A DNA stretch of 64,000 nt, from NCBI RefSeq assembly GCF_023028105.1, contig NZ_CP095491.1, forward strand, positions 2,914,001-2,978,000, written 5' to 3'. Positions 34,801-51,537 of the stretch are shown piece after piece. Both the position numbers and the translations under genes were made by a program. How positions within the stretch are numbered: the stretch's first letter is position 1; each line of letters opens with the position of its first letter. The notes under the pieces were generated by a model. That model did no database searches and was not told the DNA's origin. It saw only the letters and a program-made list of their open reading frames with translations. Source of the stretch: Halosolutus gelatinilyticus. GTDB taxonomy: Archaea; Halobacteriota; Halobacteria; Halobacteriales; Natrialbaceae.

Positions 34801-36034
34801 GGGCGACGACGACGGTAACCGTGTGCCACTCGCCCGTCGAAAGATCGCCGCCGCTGACGCTCGGCCAGTCCCCGGCGTCGGTCTGCAGCCAGAAGCTGAC
34901 GGTTCCGTCGTAGATACCCAGCCCGAACTGTTCGGCGCCGTCGGCGACGGCGCTGTGGCCCCTGTCCAGCACCGGTCCGTCGCCCCCGTCGTACTTCACC
35001 GTCGTCCGGAGGGTAAAGCCCGGCGACGAGAAGTCCAGGGTTTCGTCGGCGGCCACCGAGACGTAGCCGTCGCCGGAGACGTCGACGCCCCGACCGTCGC
35101 GTCCCGGGACGATCGCCGGATCGCCGTACAGCACGCCGTCGTTACCCGCGCCGGACTCGTCCGGGGTCACCCCGCTTTCGACTTCGTTCAGCGGTAGCCA
35201 GGCGACGGCGCTGTCCGGAACGCGATCGAATCCGCGATCGATCCGGTCCGTCGAGAGCACCGTGTCGAACGCTCGAAACGAGTCGACCACGGGAGACCCG
35301 TGGTCGTCGTTCCCCGAGTCGTAGCCCAGGTGGAGCGGCGAGTCGGCGCTGGGAAGCGACGAGAAGTCGTGGCTCGTCGCTCCGATCTCGGTCGTCCCGA
35401 GGTAGAGTCTGATCTCGCTGTCGTCGACGACCAGCGTCGTCGTGTACCAGTGCCCGCGGCTGAGGTCGCCGGCGTCGATGCCGGGCCAGTTCCCGCCGCC
35501 CTCCGTCCAGAAGGACAGCTGGCCGCCCCAGACGCCCAGCGCGTACTGATCCCCCTTCGCATAAAGCGGGCCGTCGCCGGCGTATTTGAACGTCAACTGG
35601 ATCGAAAATCCGGGCTCGGTAAAGTCGACGCCGTCGGCGTCACCGACCGCGACGTAGCTCTCGTCGGCGAGGTCGACCGCCCGTTCCGTCGGATCCGTGA
35701 CGATCGGCGGCTCGTTCCGAAGCGTTCCGTCGTTGCCGGCCCCGGAGAGATCCGGTGTGACGCGCCTCGACGAGGACGACGGCGGTCGCTCGCCGGGCGA
35801 GAGCGCGAACTCCCACGTTCCGTTCAGCGACCGCGTTCCCCCCGCGTCGGTCGTGGCGGGACGGGGCGTCAACTGTATCGACGAGAGCACGTCGTCGTAT
35901 TCGTTCACCGGCGCTACGCTGGCACCCCCGATCGGGAGCGTCGCACCCAACGCGGCGCCCGAAACGGCCGAAAGTACGGTTCGACGGTGGAGAGACGGCT
36001 CTCCGATGCCGCGGTTGCTGTTATCTCTTGACAT
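31823..36034 (-). CDS. Tat-exported GH2 beta-galactosidase-like enzyme with two nested LamG domains
   Basis: A 1403-residue secreted glycosidase. R17-R18 (LHRRTVLS) and the following hydrophobic stretch form a Tat signal. The GH2 N-terminal sugar-binding domain starts at 'SLNGTWEFALSPGERP' (about 69-85), is interrupted by two tandem LamG/concanavalin-like domains (about 90-275 and 280-475, each beginning with SGAGNDG), and resumes at 'EWHDEDVPGQWAYDG'. Then come the GH2 immunoglobulin-like domain and the barrel, with acid/base E854 (WSIANESEW) and nucleophile E924 (ILFDEAAHT). A C-terminal beta region follows. The substrate is probably a galactoside polymer or glycan, inferred from context. 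ATG 36034 is preferred; A/T-rich promoter DNA (tttatta, about 36066-36075) lies upstream. Confidence 0.85.
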   Translation of the reverse strand: MSRDNSNRGIGEPSLHRRTVLSAVSGAALGATLPIGGASVAPVNEYDDVLSSIQLTPRPATTDAGGTRSLNGTWEFALSPGERPPSSSSRRVTPDLSGAGNDGTLRNEPPIVTDPTERAVDLADESYVAVGDADGVDFTEPGFSIQLTFKYAGDGPLYAKGDQYALGVWGGQLSFWTEGGGNWPGIDAGDLSRGHWYTTTLVVDDSEIRLYLGTTEIGATSHDFSSLPSADSPLHLGYDSGNDDHGSPVVDSFRAFDTVLSTDRIDRGFDRVPDSAVAWLPLNEVESGVTPDESGAGNDGVLYGDPAIVPGRDGRGVDVSGDGYVSVAADETLDFSSPGFTLRTTVKYDGGDGPVLDRGHSAVADGAEQFGLGIYDGTVSFWLQTDAGDWPSVSGGDLSTGEWHTVTVVVARDELRLYVDGARVGSSTHDATDLASSDARFVVGGSDLDVAVASTRAFDTALSDDRIERGFQAVPDGAVLWLDYDTIEDLGVEWHDEDVPGQWAYDGYAVPSGSEEWYPPDGTLGWYRREFEVPDGWADGRLLLRFDAVYSEARVFVNDSEVGHHVGGYTPFEVDATDAVTADGANALAVAVAQQSPADDMGWQNVTGGITRDVTLLSVPDVHVAACDVTTGLRGSSAAVTVETAIRNAGARGVESATVTVTLTDPEGATVATAERPVSALDAGSSGECSFELEASDPQPWNPEQPRLYTVDVTIEADGTTETISERIGIRDVSVVGNELRLNGEAVTLRGVNWEEIHLAEHGHAVPAEITREDARRLKEANVNYVRTAHHPTSEAFLDACDELGIVVEMEAPHMFVGRGRGDPDPDVVLRQTLEMVERDKNRASVCLWSIANESEWYDAFDAAGRLVAELDPTRPTIFNHDAYDPDDPWHDVYDVRAHHYPAFRTGSTVEEHADLDEPILFDEAAHTYCYNDRELVTDPGLRDEWGLPFELIWEQCRAADSVAGAAIWAGGDHLEQWGEYRWGLLDRNRRSRPEYWHVKKVYSPVRVADAEWRGNGNAVTLTIENRHEFVDLADRSIRFEGTPGSGRRPIHVPPGERTTVTLPVEDDRLEMTVTHPEGHAIERIVVTPESPRVEIPSEPATEPFADDDGTLSVATDVYSLDIDRESGAVEVRTPDGAPLIVDAPELALTPTQQSTGRDYASAIDHRLSDRTVADVTVAEDGAAVSIAVEYDDAAGTVLLRPLADGLEVEYEFALHDSVDAREVGLAVPTATDLMTLSWLRDAQWSVYPDTHIGRPGGTACAFPDGSRPNHEEIRIRSGQPWKNDATKHGSNDFRGTKRNVYAADLTAAGGHGLGVRSDGDQHVRSQVRSESIEFLILDRSLSGTNADGWLSRHPVVDQDPTLASGETLRGSVTLQVIDGDANAPNGESEHASADPDGAGRTR

Positions 36035-36222
36035 AGACGTGGTCCGGACTATAACACACATCAATAAGTAATAAATGTATGGAAGAGACGACGGCGATAA
36101 AGATCCTCCATATTGAGCCGATCGGACCGCTGCGTCAGGTCCAAAGTCGGCGCGTCGCTTCGAAAATCCGGTTCCGTCCGCCGGCCGGCGATCGAAACCG
36201 AGATCGGGCGTCCGACGCCGCG

Positions 36223-37350
36223 TCAGCGCCCCGCTTGCACGTACTGGTCGAGATCGACGTCGGTGTCGGTCGTCTTGGTCTTGACCGACTCCGTCGTGTC
36301 GGCATCGAAGAGATAGAGATCGTCCTCGTCGAAGCCGAACGTGACGGTCATCCCCTCGTCGGGGTGGACTTCGCTGTCGATGCGGGCGGTCAGGTCGATC
36401 TCGCCCATTTTGGCGTACAGGAAGTTCTCGTTACCCATCTGCTCGACGACGGTGACCTCGCTGGGCATGCTTCCGTCGGAGACGAGATCGAGGTCCTCCG
36501 GTCGCACGCCGACGCGGACTCGGTCCCGACCGTCGACGAGCGAGGGGTCCTCGAGCGCGTACTCGAACCCGCCTGGCCCGCGGAGGACGGCCCCGTCCAC
36601 GTCGGCGGAAAGGAGGTTGATGCTCGGACTGCCGATGAAGCCCGCGACGAACTCGTTGGCCGGCGATCGATAGACCTCGCTTGCCGTGCCGACCTGCTGG
36701 AGTTCGCCCCCGTTGAGGACGGCGATGCGATCGCCCATCGCCATCGCCTCGGTCTGATCGTGCGTCACGTACGCCGTGGTCACGCTCAGTTCCTGTTGGA
36801 GTTCCTGGAGTTCGGTCCGCATCGTCGAGCGGAGCTTGGCGTCCAGGTTCGACAGCGGCTCGTCCATGAGGAACACTTCGGGATCGCGGATGATCGCCCG
36901 CCCGAGCGCGACTCGCTGTTGCTGGCCGCCGGAGAGCTCCCTTGGCTTCTGATCGAGTAGATCCTCGATCCCGAGCAGTTCCGCGACGGAGTGAACCTCG
37001 GCGTCGATCTCATCGGACGACAGTTTGGTCGAGAGGCGGAGCGGGAACCCGATGTTCTTCCCCACGGTCATGTGGGGGTACAGCGCATAGTTTTGGAACA
37101 CCATCGCGACGTCCCGCTCTCGCGCGCGTTGGTCGGTCACGTCCTGTCCGTCGAATTCGATGGCGCCGTCCGTCACGTCTTCTAACCCGGCGATACATCG
37201 GAGCGTGGTCGTCTTTCCGCAGCCGGACGGACCGACGAAGACGAGAAACTCCCCGTCCTCGATCGTCAGGTCGAAATCGTCGACTGCGACGATCTGTTCA
37301 CCGCCGTCACCGTACTCCTTGCGTAAATTCGTAATGTCGATTGTTGCCAT
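36223..37350 (-). CDS. MalK/UgpC-type sugar ABC transporter ATPase
   Basis: A 375-residue nucleotide-binding subunit. Walker A is 'GPSGCGKTTTLR', signature 'LSGGQQQRVALGRA', Walker B 'VFLMDEPLSNLDAKLR', switch 'VTHDQTEAM', followed by TOBE/MOP-like regulatory domains (about 240-360). This is the CUT1 family ATPase that drives oligosaccharide or glycoside uptake. I use ATG 37350; a GTG nine bases upstream is possible. It is the last gene of the transporter operon, 12 nt after the second permease. Confidence 0.94.
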   Translation of the reverse strand: MATIDITNLRKEYGDGGEQIVAVDDFDLTIEDGEFLVFVGPSGCGKTTTLRCIAGLEDVTDGAIEFDGQDVTDQRARERDVAMVFQNYALYPHMTVGKNIGFPLRLSTKLSSDEIDAEVHSVAELLGIEDLLDQKPRELSGGQQQRVALGRAIIRDPEVFLMDEPLSNLDAKLRSTMRTELQELQQELSVTTAYVTHDQTEAMAMGDRIAVLNGGELQQVGTASEVYRSPANEFVAGFIGSPSINLLSADVDGAVLRGPGGFEYALEDPSLVDGRDRVRVGVRPEDLDLVSDGSMPSEVTVVEQMGNENFLYAKMGEIDLTARIDSEVHPDEGMTVTFGFDEDDLYLFDADTTESVKTKTTDTDVDLDQYVQAGR

Positions 37351-37362
37351 TGTGAGCACACC

Positions 37363-38199
37363 TTATTCTTTGACCGCTCCCGAGAGGATTCCCTTGATGA
37401 AGTACTGCTGCATGGTCAGGAACACGACGAATATCGGCGTCACGGCGAGCGACGTGGCGACCATGATCTGGTCGAAGTAGACGCGCTGTTGGTCGACGAG
37501 ATCCGCCAGCGCGAGCGGGATCGTGTACACCTCCGGATCCTGCAGGACCACCAGCGGATAGAGGAACGCCTGCCACTGGTTGAGAAACAGGATGATCGAC
37601 AGGGCCGCGAGCGACGGGAGCATGGTCGGGAGCGCGATCTTGTAGTACAGCTGGAACTCCGTCGCACCGTCCATCCGCGCCGACTCCAGCAGCGAGTCGG
37701 GGATCGCCTTCATGTTCTGGCGCATCAGAAAGATCCCGAGCGGGTTCGCCGCCCACGGCAGGATCACTGCCAGGAACGAGTTGGTCCAACCGATCTGGGT
37801 TATCAGCAGGTACAGCGGGATGATCAGCAGCTGGATCGGCAGGACCAGCGTCGCCAGAATGAAGTAGAACAGGGGTTCCTTGAACCGGAACTCGTACTTC
37901 GCGAAGGCGAACCCGGCCATCGAACAGAGGATCAGCGACAGGATCGTGTACGAGACCGCGATGATGATGCTGTTTTGCATGCTGTTGACGAAGTCGACGT
38001 TCTCCTGAAGCGCCCGGAAGTTCTCGAGCCAGTGGGCCCCCGGAATCAACCGTGGCGGCCACGAGAAGAACTCCGACTGCGGGATCGTCGCGGCGACGAT
38101 CATCCAGTACAGCGGGATCATCACGAGCACCACCAGCGTCAACAGGAAGATGTAGCTTCCGAACTTCCACAGCGCTTCGTCGCGTTCTTGCGATCGCAC
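37363..38199 (-). CDS. Sugar ABC transporter permease (MalG/UgpE-like)
   Basis: A 278-residue membrane permease with six helices. The EAA loop that contacts the ATPase is 'LESARMDGATEFQLYYKIALPTMLP'. It belongs to the CUT1 MalG-type group. The start is GTG at 38199, sharing one base with the TAG of the upstream permease, so the two are translationally coupled; there is no ATG nearby. It forms the channel with the next permease. Confidence 0.93.
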   Translation of the reverse strand: MRSQERDEALWKFGSYIFLLTLVVLVMIPLYWMIVAATIPQSEFFSWPPRLIPGAHWLENFRALQENVDFVNSMQNSIIIAVSYTILSLILCSMAGFAFAKYEFRFKEPLFYFILATLVLPIQLLIIPLYLLITQIGWTNSFLAVILPWAANPLGIFLMRQNMKAIPDSLLESARMDGATEFQLYYKIALPTMLPSLAALSIILFLNQWQAFLYPLVVLQDPEVYTIPLALADLVDQQRVYFDQIMVATSLAVTPIFVVFLTMQQYFIKGILSGAVKE

Positions 38200-39218
38200 T
38201 ACTTCTCACCTCCGTACTTAATCTGGACGATGGACATAGCACTAACGATTATCACGAGCAGCACCGAGACGGCGCTGGCGTATCCCAGGTTGAGCTGGAG
38301 GAACGCCTGATTGTAGATGTACTGGACGACGGTGATCGTCGCGTTCGACGGGCCGCCGCCGGTGATGATGTACGGTTCGGAGAAGATCTGGAAGGTCCCG
38401 ATCGTCGAGGAGACGACGACGAACAGCAACACCGGTCTGATCTGCGGTAGCGTCACGTATCGGAACTTCTGCCACCGCGTCGCACCGTCGATCTCCGCGG
38501 CCTCGTACAGCGGCTGCGCGACCGTCTGGAGGCCGGCCAGCAGGATGATCGTGTTGTACCCCAGCCAGCGCCACGTGACCGCGATGACGAGCGTCATCCG
38601 CGCGCCCCACGCGCTACCCAACCACGCGACCGGCGAGAAGCCGACCTGCGTGAGGAGGTAGTTGACGAGGCCGACCTGATCGTTGAACAGCAACAGGAAG
38701 ATCGTCGAGTACGCGACCAGTCCGGTCGCTACGGGGAGCGCGATCAGCGTCCGGAACAGCCCCTTCGCTCGGATGAACTTCGAGTCCAACACGAGCGCGG
38801 TCGCCAGTCCCAGGGTCACCATCAGCGGCACCTGGACGAAGAAGATGAACGCCGTGTTGAACAGGGACCGGTGGAACAACGAGTCCCTGAAGATCAGCCG
38901 TTCGTAGTGCGACAGCCCGACGAACTCCAGGTTCGCGATGGTCGGGATCGTGATTTCGAGCGGACCCAGGGTGATCGTGAGCAGTATGTCGTTCGAAACG
39001 CCGACGTAGCTAAAGAACGAGAGGTAGAGCGTGTACGCCGTCGGGAACAGCAGGAAGATCCCGAAGAGGATGAAAAACGGCGAAATATACGCGTACGGAA
39101 GCCCCGGGATCGTCGGGACGATCTCGGAGACGTCTTGGCGAGCGTATCGAATCCGATCGGCGAGCTGTCGATACGTTCTCGACGTTCGGACCGTGGACTG
39201 GATGGCGGTACGAACCAT
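38199..39218 (-). CDS. Sugar ABC transporter permease (MalF/UgpA-like)
   Basis: A 339-residue permease with a cytoplasmic N-terminus of about 45 residues and six or more helices. The EAA motif is 'YEAAEIDGATRWQKFRYVTLPQIRP'. It is the MalF-type partner of the next gene. A 259-nt gap, including a 14-bp palindrome, separates it from the solute-binding protein gene, so the two parts of the operon may be expressed at different levels. Confidence 0.93.
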   Translation of the reverse strand: MVRTAIQSTVRTSRTYRQLADRIRYARQDVSEIVPTIPGLPYAYISPFFILFGIFLLFPTAYTLYLSFFSYVGVSNDILLTITLGPLEITIPTIANLEFVGLSHYERLIFRDSLFHRSLFNTAFIFFVQVPLMVTLGLATALVLDSKFIRAKGLFRTLIALPVATGLVAYSTIFLLLFNDQVGLVNYLLTQVGFSPVAWLGSAWGARMTLVIAVTWRWLGYNTIILLAGLQTVAQPLYEAAEIDGATRWQKFRYVTLPQIRPVLLFVVVSSTIGTFQIFSEPYIITGGGPSNATITVVQYIYNQAFLQLNLGYASAVSVLLVIIVSAMSIVQIKYGGEK

Positions 39219-39447
39219 CGGCGTCAGCGCCCCCCACTCGTCGGCCTCTCGTCCAGACGTCGCCGACCTACGGTCGGCGCCGCGGGGACCGGTCCGCCCG
39301 GAGCGTCCAGTTGCGATTCGTCCGTGCTGTCGAACGACGGCCGATCGGCGGCGCTTCGAACGATCCGGTACCGCGACGTCACCGGGGGTGTTCTGGCACC
39401 GGTTCTCGATTTTTCTGAATCCATGGTTAGCGGTGTCAAAGGCGTGT

Positions 39448-39461
39448 ACGTAGATCTACGT
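39448..39461 (-). terminator. Palindrome acgtagatctacgt downstream of the SBP gene
   Basis: A perfect 14-bp palindrome 16 nt past the stop of the solute-binding protein gene. In RNA it could form a short hairpin that partially terminates transcription or protects the upstream mRNA end, which is a common way to make more binding protein than permease. It could equally be a DNA operator. I cannot tell which from sequence. Confidence 0.3.
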
Positions 39462-39477
39462 CAAATAGTTTCGGACG

Positions 39478-40809
39478 TTACGCCAGCTCACGGCCGGTTC
39501 GGTCGGCGACGGTCTCGGCGGCGTTCCGGACCGCGTCCTCGGGGGATTTGTTCCCGTCGAGCATGTTCCCGAGTTCGGTCTCGATCGCGTCCTGCACCTC
39601 CGGGGTGTCCGTCGTGTAGCGATACGGCTCGATCTCTTCGGCGACCTCCGCGAACAGGCTGAAGATCGGCTGTCCGCCGTAGAAGTCCTGCTCCTGGTCG
39701 TAAATATCGGCCTCGTAGGCCGACGTCAGCGATGGGAAGAGCCCGTACTCTTCGAGCATCGCGTTTTGTACCTCGGGCGTGGTCATCGCGTACAGACAGT
39801 AGTCGAACGCGCGGTTGACCGTCTCCCCGTCGTCGATCTGGGACGGAATCGCCAGGTTCGATCCGCCGCGATTCGACGCGCGGGTGCCGCCCGATTCGAA
39901 CGCGGGGAGCTTGTATACGCCCCAGTTACCGGACGTGTCCTTCAGCTCGGCTCGCAGGGTCCCATCCATCCACGCCGCGCTCGGGAGGGAGGCCAGCGTG
40001 CCCTCGGAGAACGACGTGAACCACCCGCCGGACCACAGCTCGATCCGGGTCGTGATTCCGGCGTCGTTCATGTCCCGGATGAGCGTTGCGACGCGCACGC
40101 TCTCTTCGCTGTCGACGTTGACCGCGCCGTCCTCGGTGAACGCTTGCCCGCCGAGCTGTCGCAGGAGCATCCGCCACAGCTGGGACATCTCCTGGGGTGG
40201 AAGGTTGATCATCGCCACGTCGTTCGGGAGCTGCTGGCCGGCCTCGATGAAGTCGTCCCACGTCTCGATGGCCTCGACGTCGATGCCGGCGTCCTCGTAT
40301 CGGTCCCGCTTGTAGAAGACGCCGGTGGGACCGATGTCCCACGGGATCGCGTAGTAGGCGTCCTCGTAACTGACGGTTTGCCACTTGCCCTCGACGATCT
40401 CCTCGACGATCCCCGCCTCTTCGATCCGGTCCGTGAGGTCGCGAAGCCCGCCGATGCTGGCGTAGTTCGTCACGTCGTAGTTCTGAACCGCGGAGAAATC
40501 GGGCGCACCGGTGCCGCTCGTAATCGCGGTCTGGAACCGCTGTTCCCAGGCATCGCCGCCCAGCTCTTTGACCGTCACGTCCGCCCCTTCCTCGTCGTTG
40601 TACCGCTTAGCGGCGTCCTGTAGCGCTTTCGCTGCGACGTTCCAGGCCCAGCCGTTCGCGGAGGGGGCCAGCTCTGACGTCGACGGTCCGGAGCTATCGT
40701 CGGCATCGCCGCCGAAACTAACGCAGCCTGCGAGACCAGCGGTGCCCGCGATCCCGAGCGCTTTGAGCAGCTGTCGACGCCGAGAATTCGGGTCTGAAGA
40801 CTCTGTCAT
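39478..40809 (-). CDS. Extracellular sugar-binding lipoprotein (family 1 SBP)
   Basis: A 443-residue binding protein. The N-terminus has a Tat motif (R10-R11-R12) and lipobox LAGC with lipid-attachment Cys C29, so it should be exported folded and anchored to the outer face of the membrane. The rest is a two-lobe bacterial-type family 1 SBP (PDFSAVQNYDVTNYASIGGL, DIGPTGVFYKRDRYEDAGID). It delivers the sugar to the permeases encoded downstream. A strong promoter-like element with an adjacent palindrome precedes it. The ligand is probably a galactoside, from context. Confidence 0.93.
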   Translation of the reverse strand: MTESSDPNSRRRQLLKALGIAGTAGLAGCVSFGGDADDSSGPSTSELAPSANGWAWNVAAKALQDAAKRYNDEEGADVTVKELGGDAWEQRFQTAITSGTGAPDFSAVQNYDVTNYASIGGLRDLTDRIEEAGIVEEIVEGKWQTVSYEDAYYAIPWDIGPTGVFYKRDRYEDAGIDVEAIETWDDFIEAGQQLPNDVAMINLPPQEMSQLWRMLLRQLGGQAFTEDGAVNVDSEESVRVATLIRDMNDAGITTRIELWSGGWFTSFSEGTLASLPSAAWMDGTLRAELKDTSGNWGVYKLPAFESGGTRASNRGGSNLAIPSQIDDGETVNRAFDYCLYAMTTPEVQNAMLEEYGLFPSLTSAYEADIYDQEQDFYGGQPIFSLFAEVAEEIEPYRYTTDTPEVQDAIETELGNMLDGNKSPEDAVRNAAETVADRTGRELA

Positions 40810-40950: not shown

Positions 40951-41703
40951 TCAGTTCAGTTCCAGGACGGCCGCGATCGCCGCGTCGGGATCGCCGGTCG
41001 GCGAGAATTCGCACCCGACGAACCCGTCGTAGCCGGCGTCGTCGATCGCCCGGAAGACGTTTTCGTAGTTCAGTTCGCCGGTCCCCGGTTCGTGGCGGCC
41101 CGGCACGTCGGCGACGTGTACGTGGCCGATTCGGTCGACGTTCTCGGTGATCGTCCGGATGACGTCTCCCTCGGTGATCTGCTGGTGATACACGTCGTAC
41201 AACAGCGTGACGGCGGGCGAACCGACCGCATCGACGATCTCGAACCCCTCCTCGCTTGTGGACAGGTAATTCCTCGGGTGGTCGACGTCGGTGTTGAGCG
41301 GTTCCAGCGCGATCGCGACGTCCGCCGCCTCGGCGTCGGCCGCGACCCGCGAAAGGACGTCCACGACGTTCTCTCGCTGCTGCGGCCGATCGAGTCCGTC
41401 CTGGTCCGGCCCGGTCGTCGCGATCAGCGTCGGGATCCCCAGCCCCGAAGCGGTCTCGATCGATTCGCGGATCGTCTCGACCGCGTCGTCGGCCGCTCCG
41501 GGATCGGTCAGCACGCCGCCGGCGACGCAGCCGACGATCTCGACGTCCGACTCTGCGGCGGCGGTCTCGATGGCGTCCAGATCTTTCCCGCGCCAGTCCC
41601 AGAACTCGACGGCACCGACGCCGGCCGCAGCGGCTCGGTGGATCCGATCGCGGAACGGCTCGTCGTCGTACACCATCTCGAGACAGATCGAGAACTCGAC
41701 CAT
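40951..41703 (-). CDS. Hydroxypyruvate isomerase-like TIM barrel
   Basis: A 250-residue protein of the AP-endonuclease-2-like xylose isomerase TIM-barrel superfamily. 'ICLEMVYDDEPFRDRIHRAAAAG', 'IALEPLNTDVDHP', 'TLLYDVYHQQITEGD', 'IGHVHVADVPGRHEPGTGELNY' and 'GFVGCEF' match the Hyi group, which isomerises hydroxypyruvate and tartronate semialdehyde; related enzymes act on other keto or aldo acids. Metal ligands would be the E in ALEPL, D in LYDVYH, H in HVHVAD and E in GCEF. It overlaps the preceding Gfo/Idh gene by 1 nt, so the two act together. The true substrate is unknown. Confidence 0.8.
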   Translation of the reverse strand: MVEFSICLEMVYDDEPFRDRIHRAAAAGVGAVEFWDWRGKDLDAIETAAAESDVEIVGCVAGGVLTDPGAADDAVETIRESIETASGLGIPTLIATTGPDQDGLDRPQQRENVVDVLSRVAADAEAADVAIALEPLNTDVDHPRNYLSTSEEGFEIVDAVGSPAVTLLYDVYHQQITEGDVIRTITENVDRIGHVHVADVPGRHEPGTGELNYENVFRAIDDAGYDGFVGCEFSPTGDPDAAIAAVLELN

Positions 41704-42806
41704 CAGTCCTCACCCGCCGGCGCCGGCGCGAGGTCCCCCGCATCGAGCATCGCCTGCAGGGGATTGTCCTCGATCTCCAGCGGAAGGTCGACCCGCCCCC
41801 GTCGCCGGGCGGACTCCCACGCGGCGAAGATGAGTTCCGTCGCGTTGAGCGCGTTTTCCGCCCCGAGTTCGGGCGTTTCGCCCTCGCTGAGACAGCGCAC
41901 GTTTTCGGCGATGGCGCGATCGATGAACTCCCAGCCGTGGAGTCCGTCCTCGGTCTCGACGGGGGTCCAGCCCTCCCCGTCCCGGCGGATGCGAAGCGCC
42001 GGTACCTCCTCGTCCCCGTCGCCCTCGGGACCGACCTCGATGACGCCGTCGGCGCCGATCAAGCGGTTGTGACACGCGAACGCGCCGGCCGGGCCGCCGG
42101 CGCCGGTGCTGTCGGAGGCCGCGACGCCGTGGACGCCGTTCTCGTACTTCCAGTGGACGATCGCCTGGTTCTCGTTGTGCGTGCCGAAGAGGACGTTCTC
42201 CTCGGAGTAGTCGATCTGACCGAGCACCCACTCGCCCGAGGTCTCGTCGTTGAAGTAGTTACAGAGGTCGAAGGAGTGACTCCCGTAGTCGAAGATACCG
42301 ACCGGCGCGGAAAACTCGACCCGTCGGAGGTCGCCGATCTCGCCGGCGTCGAGCAGGTCCTTCGCGGTTCTGACGGCGTCGCTGAACCGACGCTGGTGGT
42401 TGAACGTGAGCTGAACGTCGTGGCGGCTGGCCTCCTGCGTCATCAGCTTCGCGCCGCCGTACGTGTCGGCCATCGGTTTCTCGCAGTGGATCGCGTCGAC
42501 GACGCCGCTGCGGATGCACCCGAGCGCGATTTCGGCGTGGATCGACGGAGGAACGCAGATCGAGACGATATCCGGCTCGATCGCCTCCAGCATCTCCTCG
42601 TACGCTACGAAAACGTTCTCCTCGTCGACGTCGAACTCGTCGGCGAACGCCTCGGCGTTCTCTCTGACGATGTCGGCGCAGGCGACGAGCGTACACTCGC
42701 GGTGATTCTCGTATCCCGCCGCGTGGTGATACGCCATCGCGTAGCCGTCCCGTCCCGGGTCGTCCGGCTCCGCACCAGTACCGACAACTGCGACCGTGTA
42801 AGGCAT
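41703..42806 (-). CDS. Gfo/Idh/MocA family oxidoreductase
   Basis: A 367-residue NAD(P)-dependent sugar or sugar-acid dehydrogenase. A Rossmann fold begins 'YTVAVVGTG'; the catalytic 'EKPMADTYG' (K of the EKP motif) is present, followed by 'SFDLCNYF' in the C-terminal domain. The frame continues upstream, but ATG 42806 sits about 25 nt from a clear TATA-like box and starts the Rossmann fold normally. It is tightly coupled to the isomerase-like gene. It could oxidise galactose or a side-chain sugar; sequence does not say. Confidence 0.88.
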   Translation of the reverse strand: MPYTVAVVGTGAEPDDPGRDGYAMAYHHAAGYENHRECTLVACADIVRENAEAFADEFDVDEENVFVAYEEMLEAIEPDIVSICVPPSIHAEIALGCIRSGVVDAIHCEKPMADTYGGAKLMTQEASRHDVQLTFNHQRRFSDAVRTAKDLLDAGEIGDLRRVEFSAPVGIFDYGSHSFDLCNYFNDETSGEWVLGQIDYSEENVLFGTHNENQAIVHWKYENGVHGVAASDSTGAGGPAGAFACHNRLIGADGVIEVGPEGDGDEEVPALRIRRDGEGWTPVETEDGLHGWEFIDRAIAENVRCLSEGETPELGAENALNATELIFAAWESARRRGRVDLPLEIEDNPLQAMLDAGDLAPAPAGED

Positions 42807-42827
42807 CACGACATCAATCCCGCTGGG

Positions 42828-42837
42828 TCTATAAAAA
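42828..42837 (-). promoter_or_regulatory. TATA box of the Gfo/Idh-isomerase unit
   Basis: Minus-strand element tttttataga (42828-42837), 22-31 nt from the ATG at 42806: a textbook leaderless haloarchaeal promoter within the galactoside locus. Confidence 0.6.
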
Positions 42838-42880
42838 CGATCGCGAAGCGGCAACGCAAGTCGGCGGCGATGCCCCGCGT

Positions 42881-43690
42881 TCACCCCCGGCGGTAGTCCA
42901 GGTACGGCTCGTCCTGCATCACCTGCGAGCGGCCGCCGTCGATCAAGACGGTTTCGCCGGTGATGAACGCCGCGTCATCGCTGGCCAGAAACGCCGCGAG
43001 ACCGGCCACGTCGGCGGGCGTTCCGAGACGGCCGACCGGGTGAATCTCCTCGGTGTACTCGTAGTCCTCGCCCAGTTCCTCGCGGGTTCGTTCGATTTCG
43101 ATCCACCCGGGATTGATGGTGTTGACCGTGATCCCCTCGGGACCGAGTTCCAGCGCCATCGCCCGAGTCATGCCGTTTATCCCGGCCTTGATCGCGTTGT
43201 AGGGGAACAGGCCGGGCATCGTGAGGAACGCGTGGTTCGAGGAGGTGTTGAGGATCGTCCCGCCCTCCGGCACGTGCTCGACCGCGTGTTTCGCACAGAG
43301 CCAGAACGATCGAAAGTCCGTCTCGAGGACGAACTCCCAATCGTTCACGGTCGCTTCCTTCACGGTCGTCTCGGTCTGCACGCCGGCGTTGTTCACGAGC
43401 GTATCGATCCGGCCGTACTCGTCGACGGTGTGTTCGACGAGCGCCCGTATCTCGGCCGGGTCTCGCATGTCCGCGCGGACGAATACCGCCTCGCCGCCCC
43501 GCGATTCGATGTCGTCGGCGACGCGCTTCCCGGCGTCCGCGGAGCGGCCCGTTACGACGACGGCCGCGCCTTCGGCGGCGAAGCGACGGGCGACTCCTTC
43601 GCCGATTCCGCGGGTCGACCCCGTGACGAGCGCGACGGTATCCTCGTGTCTGTTCTCGACGGCGTTCGCGGTCGGATCGTCGAAAGCCAT
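42881..43690 (-). CDS. SDR dehydrogenase, candidate galactose/glucose 1-dehydrogenase
   Basis: A 269-residue classical short-chain dehydrogenase. The cofactor loop is 'TGSTRGIGEG', 'NNAGVQ' follows, and the catalytic Ser (TSSNHA), Tyr and Lys (YNAIK) are present. It is similar in style to glucose 1-dehydrogenase/KDG dehydrogenase SDRs. Its place 52 nt downstream of dgoD makes D-galactose 1-dehydrogenase the natural guess, since that is the first step of the De Ley-Doudoroff route, but that is inference from context. An A/T-rich element (about 43713-43720) could give it its own promoter. Confidence 0.88.
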   Translation of the reverse strand: MAFDDPTANAVENRHEDTVALVTGSTRGIGEGVARRFAAEGAAVVVTGRSADAGKRVADDIESRGGEAVFVRADMRDPAEIRALVEHTVDEYGRIDTLVNNAGVQTETTVKEATVNDWEFVLETDFRSFWLCAKHAVEHVPEGGTILNTSSNHAFLTMPGLFPYNAIKAGINGMTRAMALELGPEGITVNTINPGWIEIERTREELGEDYEYTEEIHPVGRLGTPADVAGLAAFLASDDAAFITGETVLIDGGRSQVMQDEPYLDYRRG

Positions 43691-43742: not shown

Positions 43743-44897
43743 TTACCACTCGGCGACGCTGCCGTCGTCGTGTCGCCAGACCGGATTGTGCCAGTCGTGC
43801 CCGACTTCGGCCTGCTCGCGGACGTGGTCCTCGTCGATTTCGATGCCCAGACCGGGCCCGCTCGGGATTCGAACGTAGCCGTCCTCGTAATCGAACACGG
43901 ACGGATCCGCGAGGTAATCGAGCACGTCGCTCGTCTCGTTGTAGTGGATGTTCAGACTCTGTTCCTGGATGAACGCGTTTGGGGAGCAGGCGTCCACCTG
44001 CAGGCAGGCGGCCAGCGCGATCGGGCCGAGCGGGCAGTGCGGAGCCATCGCCACGTCGTAGGCTTCGGCCATCGCCGCGATCTTCGTGACCTCGGTGATG
44101 CCGCCGGCGTGGCTGAGGTCGGGCTGGATCACGTCGACCGCGCCGCTCTCGAAGATTTCCTTGAAATCCCACCGGGAGTACAGCCGTTCGCCCGTCGCGA
44201 TCGGCGTCGTGGTGTGGGAGGCGATCGTCGGCAGCGCGTCGTTGTGTTCCGGCAGGACCGGCTCCTCGACGAACATCGGGTCGTACGGTTCCAACCCCTC
44301 GACCAGCCGCTTGGCCATCGGCTTCGAGACGCGTCCGTGGAAGTCCACGCCGACGTCCACCTCGTCGCCGACGGCGTCGCGAACCTCGCGAAGTCGGGTG
44401 ACGGCAGCGTCGATCGTCGCCGGATCGTCGACGCGTTCGATCTCCTCGGTGGCGTTCATCTTCAACGCCGTGAAGCCCGCCTCGACCTGTTTCCGGGCCT
44501 GATCGGCCACGTCGGACGGGCGATCGCCGCCGATCCACTGGTAAACCCGGATCCGATTCCGCGCCGCACCGCCGAGCAGTTCGTACACCGGCACGTCCAG
44601 GCGCTTCCCTTTGATATCCCACAGGGCCTGGTCGATTCCCGCGATCGCGCTCATCAGGACCGGCCCGCCCCGATAGAAGCCGCCGCGGTACATCGTCTGC
44701 CAGTGATCCTCGATTCGACTCGGATCCTCGCCCAGCAGGTAGGTGTCGAGCAGCTCCTCGACCGCCGTTTCGACGGTTTCGGCGCGTCCCTCCACGATCG
44801 GCTCGCCCCAGCCGACGGTGCCGTCGGCCGCCTCGAGACGCAGGAACAGCCATCGCGGTGGTACTTCGAACAGCTCGTAGTCGGCGATCTCGGTCAT
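43743..44897 (-). CDS. dgoD: D-galactonate dehydratase
   Basis: A 384-residue enolase-superfamily enzyme, colinear with E. coli DgoD from 'PPRWLFLRLE' to the C-terminal 'NPVWRHDDGSVAEW'. Metal ligands D185, E211 and E237, acid H187 (DFHGR) and the base dyad H287 (APHCPLGP) with D260 are all present. It dehydrates D-galactonate to 2-keto-3-deoxygalactonate in the cytosol, the second oxidative step of galactose breakdown. A proximal TATA-like element (about 44929-44936) lies about 32 nt upstream, and two copies of the putative IclR operator lie about 400 nt upstream. Confidence 0.95.
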   Translation of the reverse strand: MTEIADYELFEVPPRWLFLRLEAADGTVGWGEPIVEGRAETVETAVEELLDTYLLGEDPSRIEDHWQTMYRGGFYRGGPVLMSAIAGIDQALWDIKGKRLDVPVYELLGGAARNRIRVYQWIGGDRPSDVADQARKQVEAGFTALKMNATEEIERVDDPATIDAAVTRLREVRDAVGDEVDVGVDFHGRVSKPMAKRLVEGLEPYDPMFVEEPVLPEHNDALPTIASHTTTPIATGERLYSRWDFKEIFESGAVDVIQPDLSHAGGITEVTKIAAMAEAYDVAMAPHCPLGPIALAACLQVDACSPNAFIQEQSLNIHYNETSDVLDYLADPSVFDYEDGYVRIPSGPGLGIEIDEDHVREQAEVGHDWHNPVWRHDDGSVAEW

Positions 44898-45286: not shown

Positions 45287-45303
45287 GTGCACTAACAGTG
45301 AAC
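45287..45303 (-). promoter_or_regulatory. Putative IclR operator, copy A
   Basis: On the minus strand GTTCACTGTTAGTGCAC, a 17-bp near-palindrome with 7-bp arms (6 of 7 pairs complementary) around GTT. It shares 14 of 17 bases with the site at the iclR promoter and 16 of 17 with copy B, 66 nt away. Confidence 0.6.
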
Positions 45304-45352: not shown

Positions 45353-45369
45353 GTGCACTAACGGTGAAC
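45353..45369 (-). promoter_or_regulatory. Putative IclR operator, copy B
   Basis: On the minus strand GTTCACCGTTAGTGCAC, differing from copy A at one base. It sits about 20-35 nt downstream of a TATA-like tract (45385-45400, read on minus), so it would overlap a transcription start if that promoter is real. Confidence 0.6.
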
Positions 45370-45598: not shown

Positions 45599-48500
45599 TT
45601 ACTCTCTCGATCGCGGGATATCGTTCCGCAGCTGTATTTCGCGGGCGAGGACGGCGGATTCCGTCTCGTCGCGATAGTACGGGCGGATGGTGAGTCCGAA
45701 CGAGGCCGGTTCGGGCATCACCCGATGTTCGGGAAGCGGTTTGACCGGCGTCCCCCCGACGCCCGAGACGGCGACGTCGACGAACAGTCTCGTTCCGTCC
45801 GCCGCGACGAGGTCCGAGAGGCTGGCGGCTTCAGCGAGGTTCTCGTACCGATCCAGTCGGACGTTGAGGGGGCGGTCTCCGACGACCGCGAACCCCGCGG
45901 TCGGGCCGGTCAAACTCGCCCAGCGAACGTCCGTTTTGTTCCCGTTATCCGACGGGAGACGGTACGGAACGAATTGGTCGTCGACGCTACCGGCGTACCG
46001 CCCGATCGCGCTGCCGGTCTTTCGGTCGGGATAGGTCTCCTCGGGACCGCGACCGAACCACTCGAAATCGGTCGCCGACGGTGGGACGTCGAACTGCACG
46101 CCGAGTCTCGGCAGCCACGACGACAGGGAGTCACGCAGCGCCGAGGTTGGCGCCACGTCGATCGTCACTACGACGGTTCCGGTTCCGTCCACGTCGTAGT
46201 CGTAGTCGACCTCGAACAGCCCGATTCCGTCGGGGTTGCGGGCGATCGTCGCCACGGACAGGTGCGCGGTTCCGTCGGCCGTCCTCCCCACGGCGTGTTC
46301 GACGACCGTCTGTTCGAGGTCGTGCAGTCCGAGCGACAGCCACTCCGACTCGTTGTCGTACCCCCACTCGGTATCGCTATCGACGACCCCCTCGTTGGGG
46401 ACCGTCGCCCGGAACGCGCCGAACAGCGGCCCGTCCCGTGCGACGACCGCGTCCCCGTATCGGAACTCGCGGAAACAGCCCCGCTCCAGATCGAAGCGAT
46501 AGCGGAACCGATCGCCGGCGACGGTCACCGCCGTCTCGCTCTCCTTGATGGTAACGTGACCGCCGTCGGCCGTCGGGATCGACGACGGCTCCGGAAGTTC
46601 GATCGGCACGGCGAACTGCTCGAATCCGATTTCGTGGCCCGCCGCCGCCCAGTCGGTCTCCTCGGGCAGGCGAACGCGGAGCGTCAAGTGGCACTCGGTG
46701 CCAGGAGGGAGCGTCGATCGGTCGAACGGGACGATCACTCCTCGCGTTCGCGATGGGGGGACGTCGAGGCGGAGCCGACCCGACTGGACGGGGTTCCCGT
46801 CGACGGTCAGCTCCCACGTCGTCTCGAACGCGGAGAGGTTCGTAACGGCGTGGTGGTTCGTAACCGCGAGTACGCCCTCCCGGATCGCGACGGCCTCGAA
46901 GGCGAACGGCTGCTGTGTCTTCTTCAACTGCCGGAGCTCGGGTTGCGGGGACAGATCCGAGAAGACGACGCCGTCGAGCAGGAAGGGGTCATCGTCGAAC
47001 CACCACTCGTCCGCGTTCCCGTCGGGAACCACCTCCCCCGCGAGCGTCTGATTGGTCCACTCCCAGACGAACCCGCCTTGGAGGCCGTCGATCTCTCGAA
47101 CCAGCTCCCAGAACGCGTCCTGCAGGCCGAGGCTGTTGCCCAGCGCGTGCGCGTATTCGCCCATGATCAACGGGCGGTCCTCGACCGCGCTGTGTTGGAC
47201 GAGCGTGTGGGGGACCGGATACCGCGGCCCCGAGATGTCGGCGAACGGGGCCGTGCCGGTCATGTTCTCGTGGTACTCGTCGTAGGGTGCCGCGCCCGAG
47301 CCCTGGTGGTAGACGAACCGGGTGCCATCGCGCTCGCGGGCGTAGGCCGCCATCTCCCTGTGCGGCGCCCCTTCCCCGGCCTCGTTACTGGTGCTCCAGG
47401 CGAAGATCGACGCGAAGTTCTTGTGGTGTTCGACCATCCCCTCGAACCGCCGGACGAACGATCGATGGAAGGCGGGCGCTTCGTTGACGAAATTCATGTT
47501 GAAGTGCGTCTCGACGTTGGCTTCGTCGACGACGTACAGCCCCAGTTCGTCCGCGAGTTCGTACACCGGGAGGTCGTTCGGGTAGTGGGCGGTCCGAATG
47601 GCGTTGACGTTGTGTCGTTTCAGCATCCGCAGTTCCGTCAGGACGCGGTCGAACGGTACCGTTCGACCGGTCTCGGGATCGTGTTCGTGACGGTTGATCC
47701 CGCGAACGGTCATCGGCTCGCCGTTGACGAGCACCCGCCCGTCCTCGATTTCGAACTCCCTGAAGCCGACCCGCTCCGGGACGGCCTCGACGACCCGACC
47801 GTCGGCGCCCCGGAGTTCCAGCACCAGATCGTAGAGCGTCGGCCGTTCCGCGGACCAGGCGGCGGGCGAGGTGACGGTCGTTCGGAGCGTCACCTCGGCG
47901 TCGTCGGCCGGTACGGCGGTCGCTTCGAGCGTCGTCACTTCGGTTCCGCCCTCGTCGAAGAGCCGTCCGGCGATCGTCCATGGGTCGGTGCTCTCGACCG
48001 CGCCGCCGAGATCGGCCTCGACCGTCAGCGTCGCGTCCTCATATGCGTCGTCGAACGTCGTCTGGACGACGTAGTCCCGGAGGTGAACCGGCGGCTTCGA
48101 GTAGAGATAGACGCTGCGGAAGATACCGCTGAAACGGAGCATGTCCTGGGTCTCCAGGTAGCTTCCGTCCGAGAACCGAAACACCTGGACCGTGAGCGTG
48201 TGGGTGCCTCCGACGTCGAGAGCGTCGGTCACGTCGAACTCGGAGGGCGTCATCGACCCCTGGTCGTACCCGACGTACTCGCCGTCTATCCAGACGAAAA
48301 ACGCGGATTTCACCCCCTCGAAGTGGAGGAACGTGCGTCGATCCTCGCCCCAGGTCGTCGGTACGTCGACGGTTCGACGGTACGTGCCGACCGGATTGAA
48401 CTCCTCGGGCACGTTCGGCGGCTCCGGTTCCGACTCGACTTCGGGGATTCGCTCCCAGGTCAGCGCGTGGTTTCGGTAGATCGGCCGATCGTAGCCGTCG

Positions 48501-48799
48501 AGTTGCCACACGCCGGGAACGGAGATCGCGCCCCAATTCGCCGCGTCCTCGAGTCGATCGGGGAGCTCAGCCGGCCGCTCGGCCCAGCAGAACGACCACT
48601 CGCCGTTCAGGAGTCGAACGTACTTCGACTCGGCCCATCTCGACTCGGGTTCGGTCAGCCGATCGGCGGCGGCCATCGCTGCCGCGGTCGATTCGTACGG
48701 CACCGTCGGGACGTGCGGCGGTTCGGTGTTTTCCGTAAGATTTGTCGGATTTTCTATATATTCTGCTAATCCGGCTAGTTGCGCTGGCTCTCGTGACAC
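45599..48799 (-). CDS. lacZ: GH2 beta-galactosidase LacZ, GTG start
   Basis: A 1066-residue full-length LacZ-type enzyme: GH2 jelly roll (about 60-235), immunoglobulin-like domain (about 240-345), TIM barrel with acid/base E473 (SNEAGEG) and nucleophile E548 (MGEYAHALGNS), a linker beta domain, and the large C-terminal beta-galactosidase small-chain domain (about 780-1055). There is no signal peptide, so it should hydrolyse lactose-like beta-galactosides in the cytosol. The start is GTG 48799, with tcacctc/GAGGTGA 6 nt upstream and a TATA element about 30 nt upstream; at that spacing the transcript may be leaderless, so the SD may be chance. Confidence 0.94.
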   Translation of the reverse strand: MSREPAQLAGLAEYIENPTNLTENTEPPHVPTVPYESTAAAMAAADRLTEPESRWAESKYVRLLNGEWSFCWAERPAELPDRLEDAANWGAISVPGVWQLDGYDRPIYRNHALTWERIPEVESEPEPPNVPEEFNPVGTYRRTVDVPTTWGEDRRTFLHFEGVKSAFFVWIDGEYVGYDQGSMTPSEFDVTDALDVGGTHTLTVQVFRFSDGSYLETQDMLRFSGIFRSVYLYSKPPVHLRDYVVQTTFDDAYEDATLTVEADLGGAVESTDPWTIAGRLFDEGGTEVTTLEATAVPADDAEVTLRTTVTSPAAWSAERPTLYDLVLELRGADGRVVEAVPERVGFREFEIEDGRVLVNGEPMTVRGINRHEHDPETGRTVPFDRVLTELRMLKRHNVNAIRTAHYPNDLPVYELADELGLYVVDEANVETHFNMNFVNEAPAFHRSFVRRFEGMVEHHKNFASIFAWSTSNEAGEGAPHREMAAYARERDGTRFVYHQGSGAAPYDEYHENMTGTAPFADISGPRYPVPHTLVQHSAVEDRPLIMGEYAHALGNSLGLQDAFWELVREIDGLQGGFVWEWTNQTLAGEVVPDGNADEWWFDDDPFLLDGVVFSDLSPQPELRQLKKTQQPFAFEAVAIREGVLAVTNHHAVTNLSAFETTWELTVDGNPVQSGRLRLDVPPSRTRGVIVPFDRSTLPPGTECHLTLRVRLPEETDWAAAGHEIGFEQFAVPIELPEPSSIPTADGGHVTIKESETAVTVAGDRFRYRFDLERGCFREFRYGDAVVARDGPLFGAFRATVPNEGVVDSDTEWGYDNESEWLSLGLHDLEQTVVEHAVGRTADGTAHLSVATIARNPDGIGLFEVDYDYDVDGTGTVVVTIDVAPTSALRDSLSSWLPRLGVQFDVPPSATDFEWFGRGPEETYPDRKTGSAIGRYAGSVDDQFVPYRLPSDNGNKTDVRWASLTGPTAGFAVVGDRPLNVRLDRYENLAEAASLSDLVAADGTRLFVDVAVSGVGGTPVKPLPEHRVMPEPASFGLTIRPYYRDETESAVLAREIQLRNDIPRSRE

Positions 48800-49608: not shown

Positions 49609-50319
49609 TCACAGCATCTCGACGCGCATCCTGTTTGCCGTCTCCGTGAGCAATCCGCTGATATTGTTTTTGATGTCGATCCCGTTCGCCCGATCGATCG
49701 GAACGACGACTTCGATCGCGGCGACCGGTCGATCGGAGGGGTCCAACACCGGCGTCGCGATGGAGACCCACTCCGGTGCGAACGGAAGGGGTTCTTCCAG
49801 TAGTTTTCCCTCCTGGACCGTTTCGAGTTGCGCCGTCAGTTCCGCGTCTTCCCCGCCGATATGAGCCGTCTGGCGCGCCGACGGGAGGTGGGCGAGGATC
49901 GCCTTTCCGGGCGGACTCTCGACGAGGCGTTCGCTGTCACCCCGACTCCGCGGGTACTCCCGACCCTCCCCGAGCGACGTGTGGACGCAGTGGCAGCGAT
50001 CGGTTTCGTTGAGCCACAGGTTCGTCGGGGCGTCGTACGACTGTGCCAGTTCGTCGATCTTGTCCGTCTGATACAGCACCGAGTTCGAATCCGTCGCTTC
50101 CAGCCCGTACTCGGTGAACTTCGGTCCCAGCACGTACTCGCCGTCGCGGTTTACGAGGGCGTCGACCGCCACGAGCGTCCGCAGGTGCTTGTACACGCCG
50201 CTCCGGGAACGACCGGTCGCTTCGATCAGGTCCGCCGCCGTGGCACCCCGTCGCTCGTAGATCACGTCGAGGATTTCGAACGCCGTCTGCGTCGCCGAGA
50301 TCCGATCCTCTCGAGACAT
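49609..50319 (-). CDS. IclR-family transcriptional regulator
   Basis: A 236-residue regulator. The N-terminal winged helix (about 5-65) has 'TAFEILDVIYERRGATAADLIEATGRSRSGVYKHLRTLV' in segments; the C-terminal IclR effector domain (about 75-235) has 'LWLNETDRCHCVHT', 'SPPGKAILAHLP' and 'WVSIATPVLDPSDRPVAAIEVVVP'. IclR proteins commonly control sugar and sugar-acid catabolism in haloarchaea (for example XacR in pentose breakdown). I use ATG 50319; an in-frame start 48 nt upstream would cover the TATA box. A 17-bp near-palindrome overlaps its promoter and recurs upstream of dgoD, suggesting it controls both itself and the locus. The inducer may be a galactose-derived acid. Confidence 0.9.
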   Translation of the reverse strand: MSREDRISATQTAFEILDVIYERRGATAADLIEATGRSRSGVYKHLRTLVAVDALVNRDGEYVLGPKFTEYGLEATDSNSVLYQTDKIDELAQSYDAPTNLWLNETDRCHCVHTSLGEGREYPRSRGDSERLVESPPGKAILAHLPSARQTAHIGGEDAELTAQLETVQEGKLLEEPLPFAPEWVSIATPVLDPSDRPVAAIEVVVPIDRANGIDIKNNISGLLTETANRMRVEML

Positions 50320-50343: not shown

Positions 50344-50365
50344 AATAAGTATACTGTTAGTGTAC
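50344..50365 (-). promoter_or_regulatory. iclR promoter with putative operator
   Basis: A minus-strand TATA-like tacttatt (50344-50351) lies about 25-32 nt from the ATG. The 17-bp near-palindrome GTATACTGTTAGTGTAC (written on plus, 50349-50365) overlaps its upstream edge, at the BRE. Binding there would prevent TFB/TBP recruitment, giving autorepression. Confidence 0.6.
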
Positions 50366-50403
50366 ACCGGGCGATCGGTGCGGCTGCCCGCTCGCAGCGG
50401 ACA

Positions 50404-51537
50404 TCACCACTCGACGAAACTGCCGTCGTTGTACCGGCGGATCGGCGTCCGCCAGTCGCTTCCCTTTCCCGCGTGTTCTCGAACCCCTTCCTCGTTTACC
50501 GCGATTCCCAATCCCGGTTCGTCCGAGAGGGAGACGCGACCGTTCTCGCTCCGAATGACGTCCACGTTGTCGACGTAAGCGTCGATGTAGCGCTCGCCCA
50601 GCGCGGGCTGCTGGACGGCGTTGGGGATGTGGTGACTGAGCTGCGTACAGGCGGCGTAGGCGATCGGACCGACAGAGCAACTGATCATCAGCGTGGCCCC
50701 GTAGGTCTCGGCCATCGAGGCGATGTTCGTAATTTCGGTGATTCCGCCGGCGTGAGAGATGTCCGGCTGTGCGATGTCCAGGCGGTGCTGTTCTAAGTGC
50801 GATCGGAACTCCCACCGCGAGTACAACCGTTCGCCGTACGCGATCGGGATGTCGTGGTACGACGACCGCTCCAGCACTCCGAGGTGCTCGGGCCGAACCG
50901 GTTCTTCGACGAACAGCGGGTCGTACTCCTGCAGTCGCGAGAGCAGCCGCGACGCCATGCTCGTCGAGATGTGTCCGTGGAGATCGATTCCGATGTCGAT
51001 CTCCCGCCCGACAGCCTCTCGAGCCTCGTCGAGGTACTCGCAGATCCTGTCGATATCGACCGTCGATTCCATCGGCGCGGTCTGATACGCCGTCAGGAGT
51101 TTGAGCGTAGTGTACCCCTCGTCGACCGCATTCGACGCCAGTTCGGAGATCTGGCCGACGCCGTCCGGAACGATCTTCTTGTGCAACGGGACGTGATCGC
51201 GAGTGCGACCCCCCAGCAGGTCGTAGATCGGCTCGTCGGAGTATTTGCCCTTGATGTCCCACAGCGCCTGGTCGATGCCGGCGATCGCCGACATGAGGAT
51301 CGGGCCGCCGCGGTAGAAGCCGCCGCGATACATCGTCTGCCAGTGATCCTCGATTCGACTCGGATCCTCGCCCAGTAGATAGCCGTCCATCAGTTCTTCG
51401 ACCGCGGCTTTGACGGTCTTGGCGCGTCCCTCGAGGATCGGTTCGCCCCATCCGACCACCCCGTCGCTGGTTTCGATCTTGAGGAAGAGCCACCGCGGGG
51501 GAACCTTGAACAGTTCGTAGTCGACGATCCGTGCCAT
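50404..51537 (-). CDS. DgoD-like enolase-superfamily protein lacking the catalytic His base
   Basis: A 377-residue paralogue of the dgoD product, highly similar in the capping domain (PPRWLFLKIE, GEDPSRIEDHWQTMYRGGFYRGGP in segments) and C-terminus (SFVEW). Metal ligands D185, E211 and E236, acid H187 and dyad D259 are kept. However, the 'APHCPLGPIA' segment is 'MISCSVGPIA', so the base His is Ser286, and the substrate loop 'YQWIGGDRP' is 'LHKKIVPDG'. It therefore cannot use the DgoD mechanism unchanged; it may act on another acid sugar, do different chemistry, or have a sensing role. A leaderless promoter (tcttaag, about 51561-51567) precedes it. It is the first gene of the minus-strand locus. 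Confidence 0.85.
   Translation of the reverse strand: MARIVDYELFKVPPRWLFLKIETSDGVVGWGEPILEGRAKTVKAAVEELMDGYLLGEDPSRIEDHWQTMYRGGFYRGGPILMSAIAGIDQALWDIKGKYSDEPIYDLLGGRTRDHVPLHKKIVPDGVGQISELASNAVDEGYTTLKLLTAYQTAPMESTVDIDRICEYLDEAREAVGREIDIGIDLHGHISTSMASRLLSRLQEYDPLFVEEPVRPEHLGVLERSSYHDIPIAYGERLYSRWEFRSHLEQHRLDIAQPDISHAGGITEITNIASMAETYGATLMISCSVGPIAYAACTQLSHHIPNAVQQPALGERYIDAYVDNVDVIRSENGRVSLSDEPGLGIAVNEEGVREHAGKGSDWRTPIRRYNDGSFVEW

Follow-up and report, generated by a model that had tools for sequence, protein, structure and literature searches.

We have characterized a galactonate dehydratase (DgoD)-like gene of Halosolutus gelatinilyticus, here called X, and consider it an even call that its product is a pseudoenzyme sensing a sugar acid for the IclR-type regulator encoded beside it, analogous to yeast Gal3. 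X has lost residues central to catalysis, belongs to a clade of its own that is kept by purifying selection, and is linked to an iclR gene with an eroded effector domain; operator-like dyads are shared between the X-iclR pair and the surrounding sugar genes. The original prediction had left three options: that the protein performs new chemistry, acts on a new substrate, or serves the same regulon without catalysis. The last of these is the best supported because Ser or Asn occupies the base position, neither the beta-8 Glu nor the beta-2 Asn is kept, X is invariably paired with iclR, and a dyad is shared with dgoD; new chemistry remains the main rival. A literature search returned no on-point report of an enolase-superfamily pseudoenzyme or regulator. 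The window is the whole 64,000-nucleotide stretch that was analyzed, and the positions of its features are collected in Table 1.

Table 1. Features of the window (positions in nucleotides from its first letter) and loci of the second DgoD-like clade.
Feature	Position	Strand	Basis or remark
X, DgoD-like enolase-superfamily protein with altered catalytic residues, 377 aa	50404..51537	-	ORF, profile matches, alignment
Ser286 codon (AGT) in place of the catalytic-base His	50680..50682	-	
iclR partner, IclR-type regulator, 236 aa from ATG at 50319	49609..50319	-	longer GTG start at 50367 also open
Operator-like inverted repeat GTATACTGTTAGTGTAC between X and iclR, abutting a TATA-like ACTTAT	50349..50365		position conserved at orthologous loci
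Dyad copy 2, intergenic, upstream of dgoD	45287..45303		0 mismatches
Dyad copy 3, upstream of dgoD	45353..45369		1 mismatch
Canonical DgoD (galactonate dehydratase), catalytic residues intact	43743..44897	-	profile, alignment
GH2 beta-galactosidase (LacZ type)	45599..48799	-	
SDR-like oxidoreductase, commonly follows dgoD	42881..43690	-	sequence inspection and neighbourhood
Sugar ABC transporter: ATPase, two permeases, binding protein	36223..40809	-	sequence inspection
Orthologues of the second DgoD-like clade	L141-L154, L155-L171		

X is the single gene in its interval, an intact reading frame with an ATG start and a TGA stop; it runs on the minus strand, a detail absent from the original prediction. 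The enolase superfamily is a classic example of how functions can diverge while one chemical step stays conserved, and X matches the MR_MLE profiles PF02746 (N-terminal capping domain) and PF13378 (C-terminal barrel). Against the galactonate dehydratase family (NCBIfam PRK14017 / NF010624) it scores 460.9 bits and so passes the curated threshold of 311, and the canonical copy in the window scores 688.7; such a score gauges overall likeness, not chemistry. The AlphaFold model of X (pLDDT 90.3, pTM 0.92) has the PRK14017 enolase 3rr1 as its best PDB match, with a TM score of 0.93. X and the canonical DgoD, whose gene lies 5.5 kb from it, share 53% identity. The capping domain was predicted to be near-identical between the two copies, as was the C-terminal segment; the former is well preserved (73% on average across residues 1-116, and 86% over the 50s-loop region, residues 58-95), whereas the C-terminal segment reaches 45% and the barrel 41%. 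An orthologue from Haladaptatus, 79% identical to X, is deposited in public records as dgoD, and our analysis indicates that the database label of galactonate dehydratase on X is probably a misannotation.

Residues were compared between eight X orthologues and 46 canonical homologues from haloarchaea and bacteria. As originally predicted, the metal ligands and the acid His are kept, the base position is Ser, and the substrate loop WIGGDRP of the canonical copy is KKIVPDG in X. The Mg2+ ligands D185, E211 and E236 (on beta-3, beta-4 and beta-5) are invariant in 8/8 orthologues, as is H187 at the acid position on beta-3 (E. coli H185); the dyad Asp D259 and K146 on beta-2 are likewise invariant. 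At the base position on beta-7 (S286 in X, H287 in the canonical copy, H285 in E. coli), five orthologues have Ser and three have Asn. The base His, the beta-8 Glu and the beta-2 Asn are each present in all 46 canonical homologues. Since the seven other orthologues carry Ser or Asn where His is found in 46/46 canonical proteins, S286 is not a chance change or a sequencing error. The alternation of Ser and Asn makes a catalytic Ser unlikely, and Ser as a substitute base was rejected as the default explanation. The codons suggest that this position may have passed from His through Asn to Ser.

The losses extend beyond those originally listed. The beta-8 Glu of the QEQ motif (canonical E312, E. 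coli E310) is replaced by Pro in 8/8 orthologues (P311), together with a one-residue deletion, and N148 on beta-2 is Leu or Ile in all eight (Leu in X of the window). R189 has become His, W121 has become Lys or Arg (Lys in the window), the Gly pair at 123-124 has become Val or Ile followed by Pro or Thr, and R168 has become Tyr or His; small deletions follow the E312 position and partly remove the 320s loop. The ligand of X is uncertain because substrate-contacting positions are among those altered. Five positions, K/R121, H189, Q152, E315 and Y/H168, are newly conserved across the clade. Read in superfamily terms, this sequence is that of a protein without the beta-7 base, the beta-8 Glu or the beta-2 polar residue that retains the metal cage.

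The suggestion that the Ser form might be a distinct clade, found next to iclR in further haloarchaea, was borne out. X is monophyletic on one branch with support of 100/100, and is known from eight species in about six independent lineages: H. gelatinilyticus, Haladaptatus halobius (G192), Halegenticoccus tardaugens (G453), Halorubrum trapanicum, three Halomicrobium genomes and one further genome (G072). All of these orthologues are 377 aa long; the other seven are 73-79% identical to X of the window, and everything else is at most 56% identical. A partial copy occurs in one MAG (L118). The closest pairs, within Halomicrobium, gave dN/dS of 0.09-0.10, and these values of about 0.1 apply where the ratio was measurable, dS often being saturated between genera; they indicate that X is under strong purifying selection. 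Every X-bearing genome also holds an intact canonical DgoD. The genome of the window contains five intact DgoD-like genes, along with a frameshifted dgoD copy that is apparently a pseudogene (L006/L007, G000:C1:2711281-2712374).

An iclR gene lies directly downstream of X, on the same strand and with a spacing of about 60-120 bp, in 8/8 genomes, and an iclR gene was found within 500 bp of 7 of the 66 ordinary dgoD loci; the Fisher tests applied treat loci as independent, X represents about six independent lineages, and neighbouring genes were assigned by simple ORF scoring. A search of 392 haloarchaeal genomes for X and a separate search for the IclR protein matched the identical seven genomes, with Halegenticoccus tardaugens being the eighth. 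In Halorubrum amylolyticum a decayed remnant that fuses the beginning of X to the final part of iclR lies beside an intact dgoD-SDR pair (L055:10130-10700), and the X-iclR pair seems to have been lost jointly there.

The regulator itself is altered. The partner in the window matches HTH_IclR at 26.2 bits (cut-off 22) and IclR_C at 24.0 bits, which is at the cut-off and spans only the last 48 residues. Across seven X-linked IclR proteins the IclR_C score is 22.5-39 bits, and a deletion of about 10 residues in the effector domain is common to them. Six of seven IclRs linked to ordinary dgoD genes score 107-127 bits and the seventh 39.5; low scores are not exclusive to X partners, as two IclRs unlinked to X score 36-40 bits. 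The erosion fits a scheme in which sensing would have moved from the IclR to X.

A 17-bp dyad, GTNNACT-N3-AGTNNAC, precedes iclR and also precedes either dgoD or a sugar-ABC operon. In the X-iclR spacer it takes the form GTAYACT-N3-AGTRTAC and abuts ACTTAT. The relaxed dyad has six matches in the window vs 0.85 expected, and none of 5000 simulated sequences reached the two copies present in the dgoD promoter. Upstream of dgoD the dyad was found with at most two mismatches at all six X-bearing loci that have dgoD, namely those of the window, Halorubrum trapanicum, G072 and the Halomicrobium genomes; five of these sites have at most one mismatch. Two mismatches occur at one Halomicrobium dgoD site and at the Halomicrobium X-iclR sites. 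Among control dgoD promoters, 2/65 carried the dyad at one mismatch or fewer, and both have their own iclR beside dgoD. In Haladaptatus and Halegenticoccus the dyad lies upstream of the gfo-hyi-ABC operon. Where an ordinary dgoD locus has an IclR gene of its own next to it, a related dyad of the GTTTACTGTGAGTGAAC type occurs (L044:7837; L082:7741 and 7833); it may be an operator used generally by the IclR sugar regulators of haloarchaea. No RNA elements were matched by Rfam between dgoD and iclR.

The cluster in the window looks like one for galactoside or lactose use. On either side of the ABC transporter and dgoD lie the LacZ-type gene and a second GH2-like gene (31823-36064), whose 1413-aa product shows a Tat-like start and LamG-like repeats on inspection. 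A conserved pair at 40951-42884 encodes, again by inspection, an oxidoreductase of the Gfo/Idh type and a TIM-barrel protein resembling hydroxypyruvate isomerase; at several of the X loci this pair accompanies the sugar ABC transporter, and it may work on a glycoside ahead of the galactose pathway. The surroundings of X-iclR vary: dgoD-SDR-GH2-ABC in the window, Halorubrum trapanicum and G072, dgoD-SDR in Halomicrobium, and gfo-hyi-ABC, in a cluster without dgoD, in Haladaptatus and Halegenticoccus.

The sensor proposal can be set out as follows. X would descend from a galactonate dehydratase, would have lost the standard abstraction of the alpha proton, and would have been kept as the regulatory partner of the IclR encoded directly behind it. 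With its Mg site and substrate-gating capping domain retained, it could bind a sugar acid of the pathway, perhaps galactonate or a near relative, without turnover, and relay ligand occupancy to the IclR through a putative contact between the two proteins. The IclR, in turn, would bind the dyads upstream of iclR itself and of dgoD or the sugar-transport operon, and control might take the form of either activation or repression. Against this proposal, H187, D259, the metal ligands and K146 are all intact, and sugar operons often have iclR adjoining an ordinary enzyme gene. If it is true, X would be an archaeal enzyme-to-sensor conversion, with the base and the second catalytic acid lost, that is open to testing in a cultured haloarchaeon.

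Less probable, though a serious contender, is that X is enzymatically active and has acquired new chemistry or another substrate, for instance as an epimerase, as a lactonase or as a dehydratase with a different base such as Lys121 or His189, and that the IclR is a plain pathway regulator. The invariant ligands, K146, H187 and D259 speak for such an enzyme, as does purifying selection, and a relocated base has precedent in the superfamily, ManD having a Tyr-Arg dyad. The positions conserved clade-wide also favour it, and K/R121 and H189 could support another reaction. Three active-site positions were lost jointly, however, and one of them tolerates either Ser or Asn. An intact DgoD is present in all X-bearing genomes, leaving no missing galactose step that obviously requires X, and a one-to-one tie to a single regulator amid changing neighbours, including the clusters without dgoD in G192 and Halegenticoccus, would be unusual for an enzyme gene.

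We regard as unlikely a role for X as an inactive subunit assembled together with canonical DgoD, whose activity or stability it would tune. Inactive paralogues have such roles in some enzyme oligomers, the capping domain takes part in oligomer contacts in the enolase superfamily, and this domain is the best-conserved part of X (73-86%); X is also confined to genomes that have canonical DgoD. Such a role leaves the fixed iclR linkage and the shared operator-like sites unexplained, and X lies outside the dgoD cluster in two genomes. Very little weight falls on X being an ordinary dehydratase for another sugar acid, with solvent or a remaining His as the base and an annotation that is nearly right: the profile score and the fold match to 3rr1 speak for it, but the base His and the beta-8 Glu are missing in 8/8 orthologues. 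The reading of X as a pseudogene in decay or an artefact of sequencing, as the frameshifted dgoD in the same genome and the Halorubrum amylolyticum remnant might suggest, is refuted by the X clade, which has intact 377-aa frames in eight species, dN/dS of 0.09-0.10 and conserved new residues, and is hardly credible.

The same genome carries a second altered DgoD-like gene (G000:C2:553043-554191; L128:10041-11192). In its clade the acid His is replaced by Arg, the base His by Asn, the beta-8 Glu by Asp and N148 by Asp. This set is strictly conserved in 18/18 genome contexts examined, at 63-91% identity to G000:C2:553043-554191. The members lie in chitin/GlcNAc clusters, no more than about 2 kb from an iclR gene, and are annotated as galactonate dehydratase. 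A 2025 paper draws a 'GAD' in haloarchaeal chitinase clusters and its predicted pathway assigns GAD no step (PMC12343721, Fig. 5). Like X, this chitin-cluster 'GAD' is a DgoD paralogue with substituted catalytic residues and an iclR gene nearby; unlike X, it has different substitutions, forms a separate clade in the more fully sampled tree, is much commoner, and is paired with an IclR whose effector domain is normal. A sister relationship of X to this clade was obtained at 95/88 with one representative, under a long-branch warning, and vanished once the clade was sampled; a common origin of the IclR partners of the two clades was unsupported, at about 26% identity. That such losses occurred twice, separately, close to iclR genes lends weight to the view that DgoD folds may have been recruited for regulation, and new chemistry is possible for the second clade. 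We offer only tentatively, and would lean against, the broader proposal that haloarchaea repeatedly converted DgoD copies into IclR-coupled, enolase-fold sugar-acid sensors, with X serving galactose clusters and the Arg/Asn/Asp clade serving chitin clusters, and that in the X pair ligand sensing left the IclR effector domain for X.

IclR-type activators of sugar catabolism are established in haloarchaea, and GacR, for galactose, is one of several (PMC11519228). Like GacR, XacR, RhcR and MscR (PMC11519228), the partner of X is of the IclR type and is encoded in a sugar cluster, and its operator-like dyad is similar to those found close to IclRs linked to ordinary dgoD genes. The partner differs from these regulators in its shortened, low-scoring effector domain, in its linkage to X, and in its sequence, the X-linked IclRs being about 22-35% identical to the remaining IclRs in the set. 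X itself is close to DgoD/GalD (PRK14017, NF010624; PDB 3rr1/3rra) in fold (TM 0.93), in D185, E211 and E236, in the acid-position His and the dyad Asp, and in the well-conserved 20s and 50s capping loops. It departs from DgoD/GalD in having Ser or Asn for the base His, Pro for the beta-8 Glu, Leu or Ile for the beta-2 Asn, His for Arg189 and Lys or Arg for Trp121, as well as in its loop deletions and adjoining regulator gene. Yeast Gal3 is an inactive galactokinase paralogue that senses galactose for Gal80/Gal4. It differs from X in having an unrelated fold, in its eukaryotic host and in the sugar derivative concerned, and sensing is a proposed role in the case of X. Like Gal3, X is a paralogue of a pathway enzyme that has lost catalytic residues and is linked to a regulator, and, as proposed here, it would be a disabled copy that stands beside the active one and is coupled to a transcription switch.
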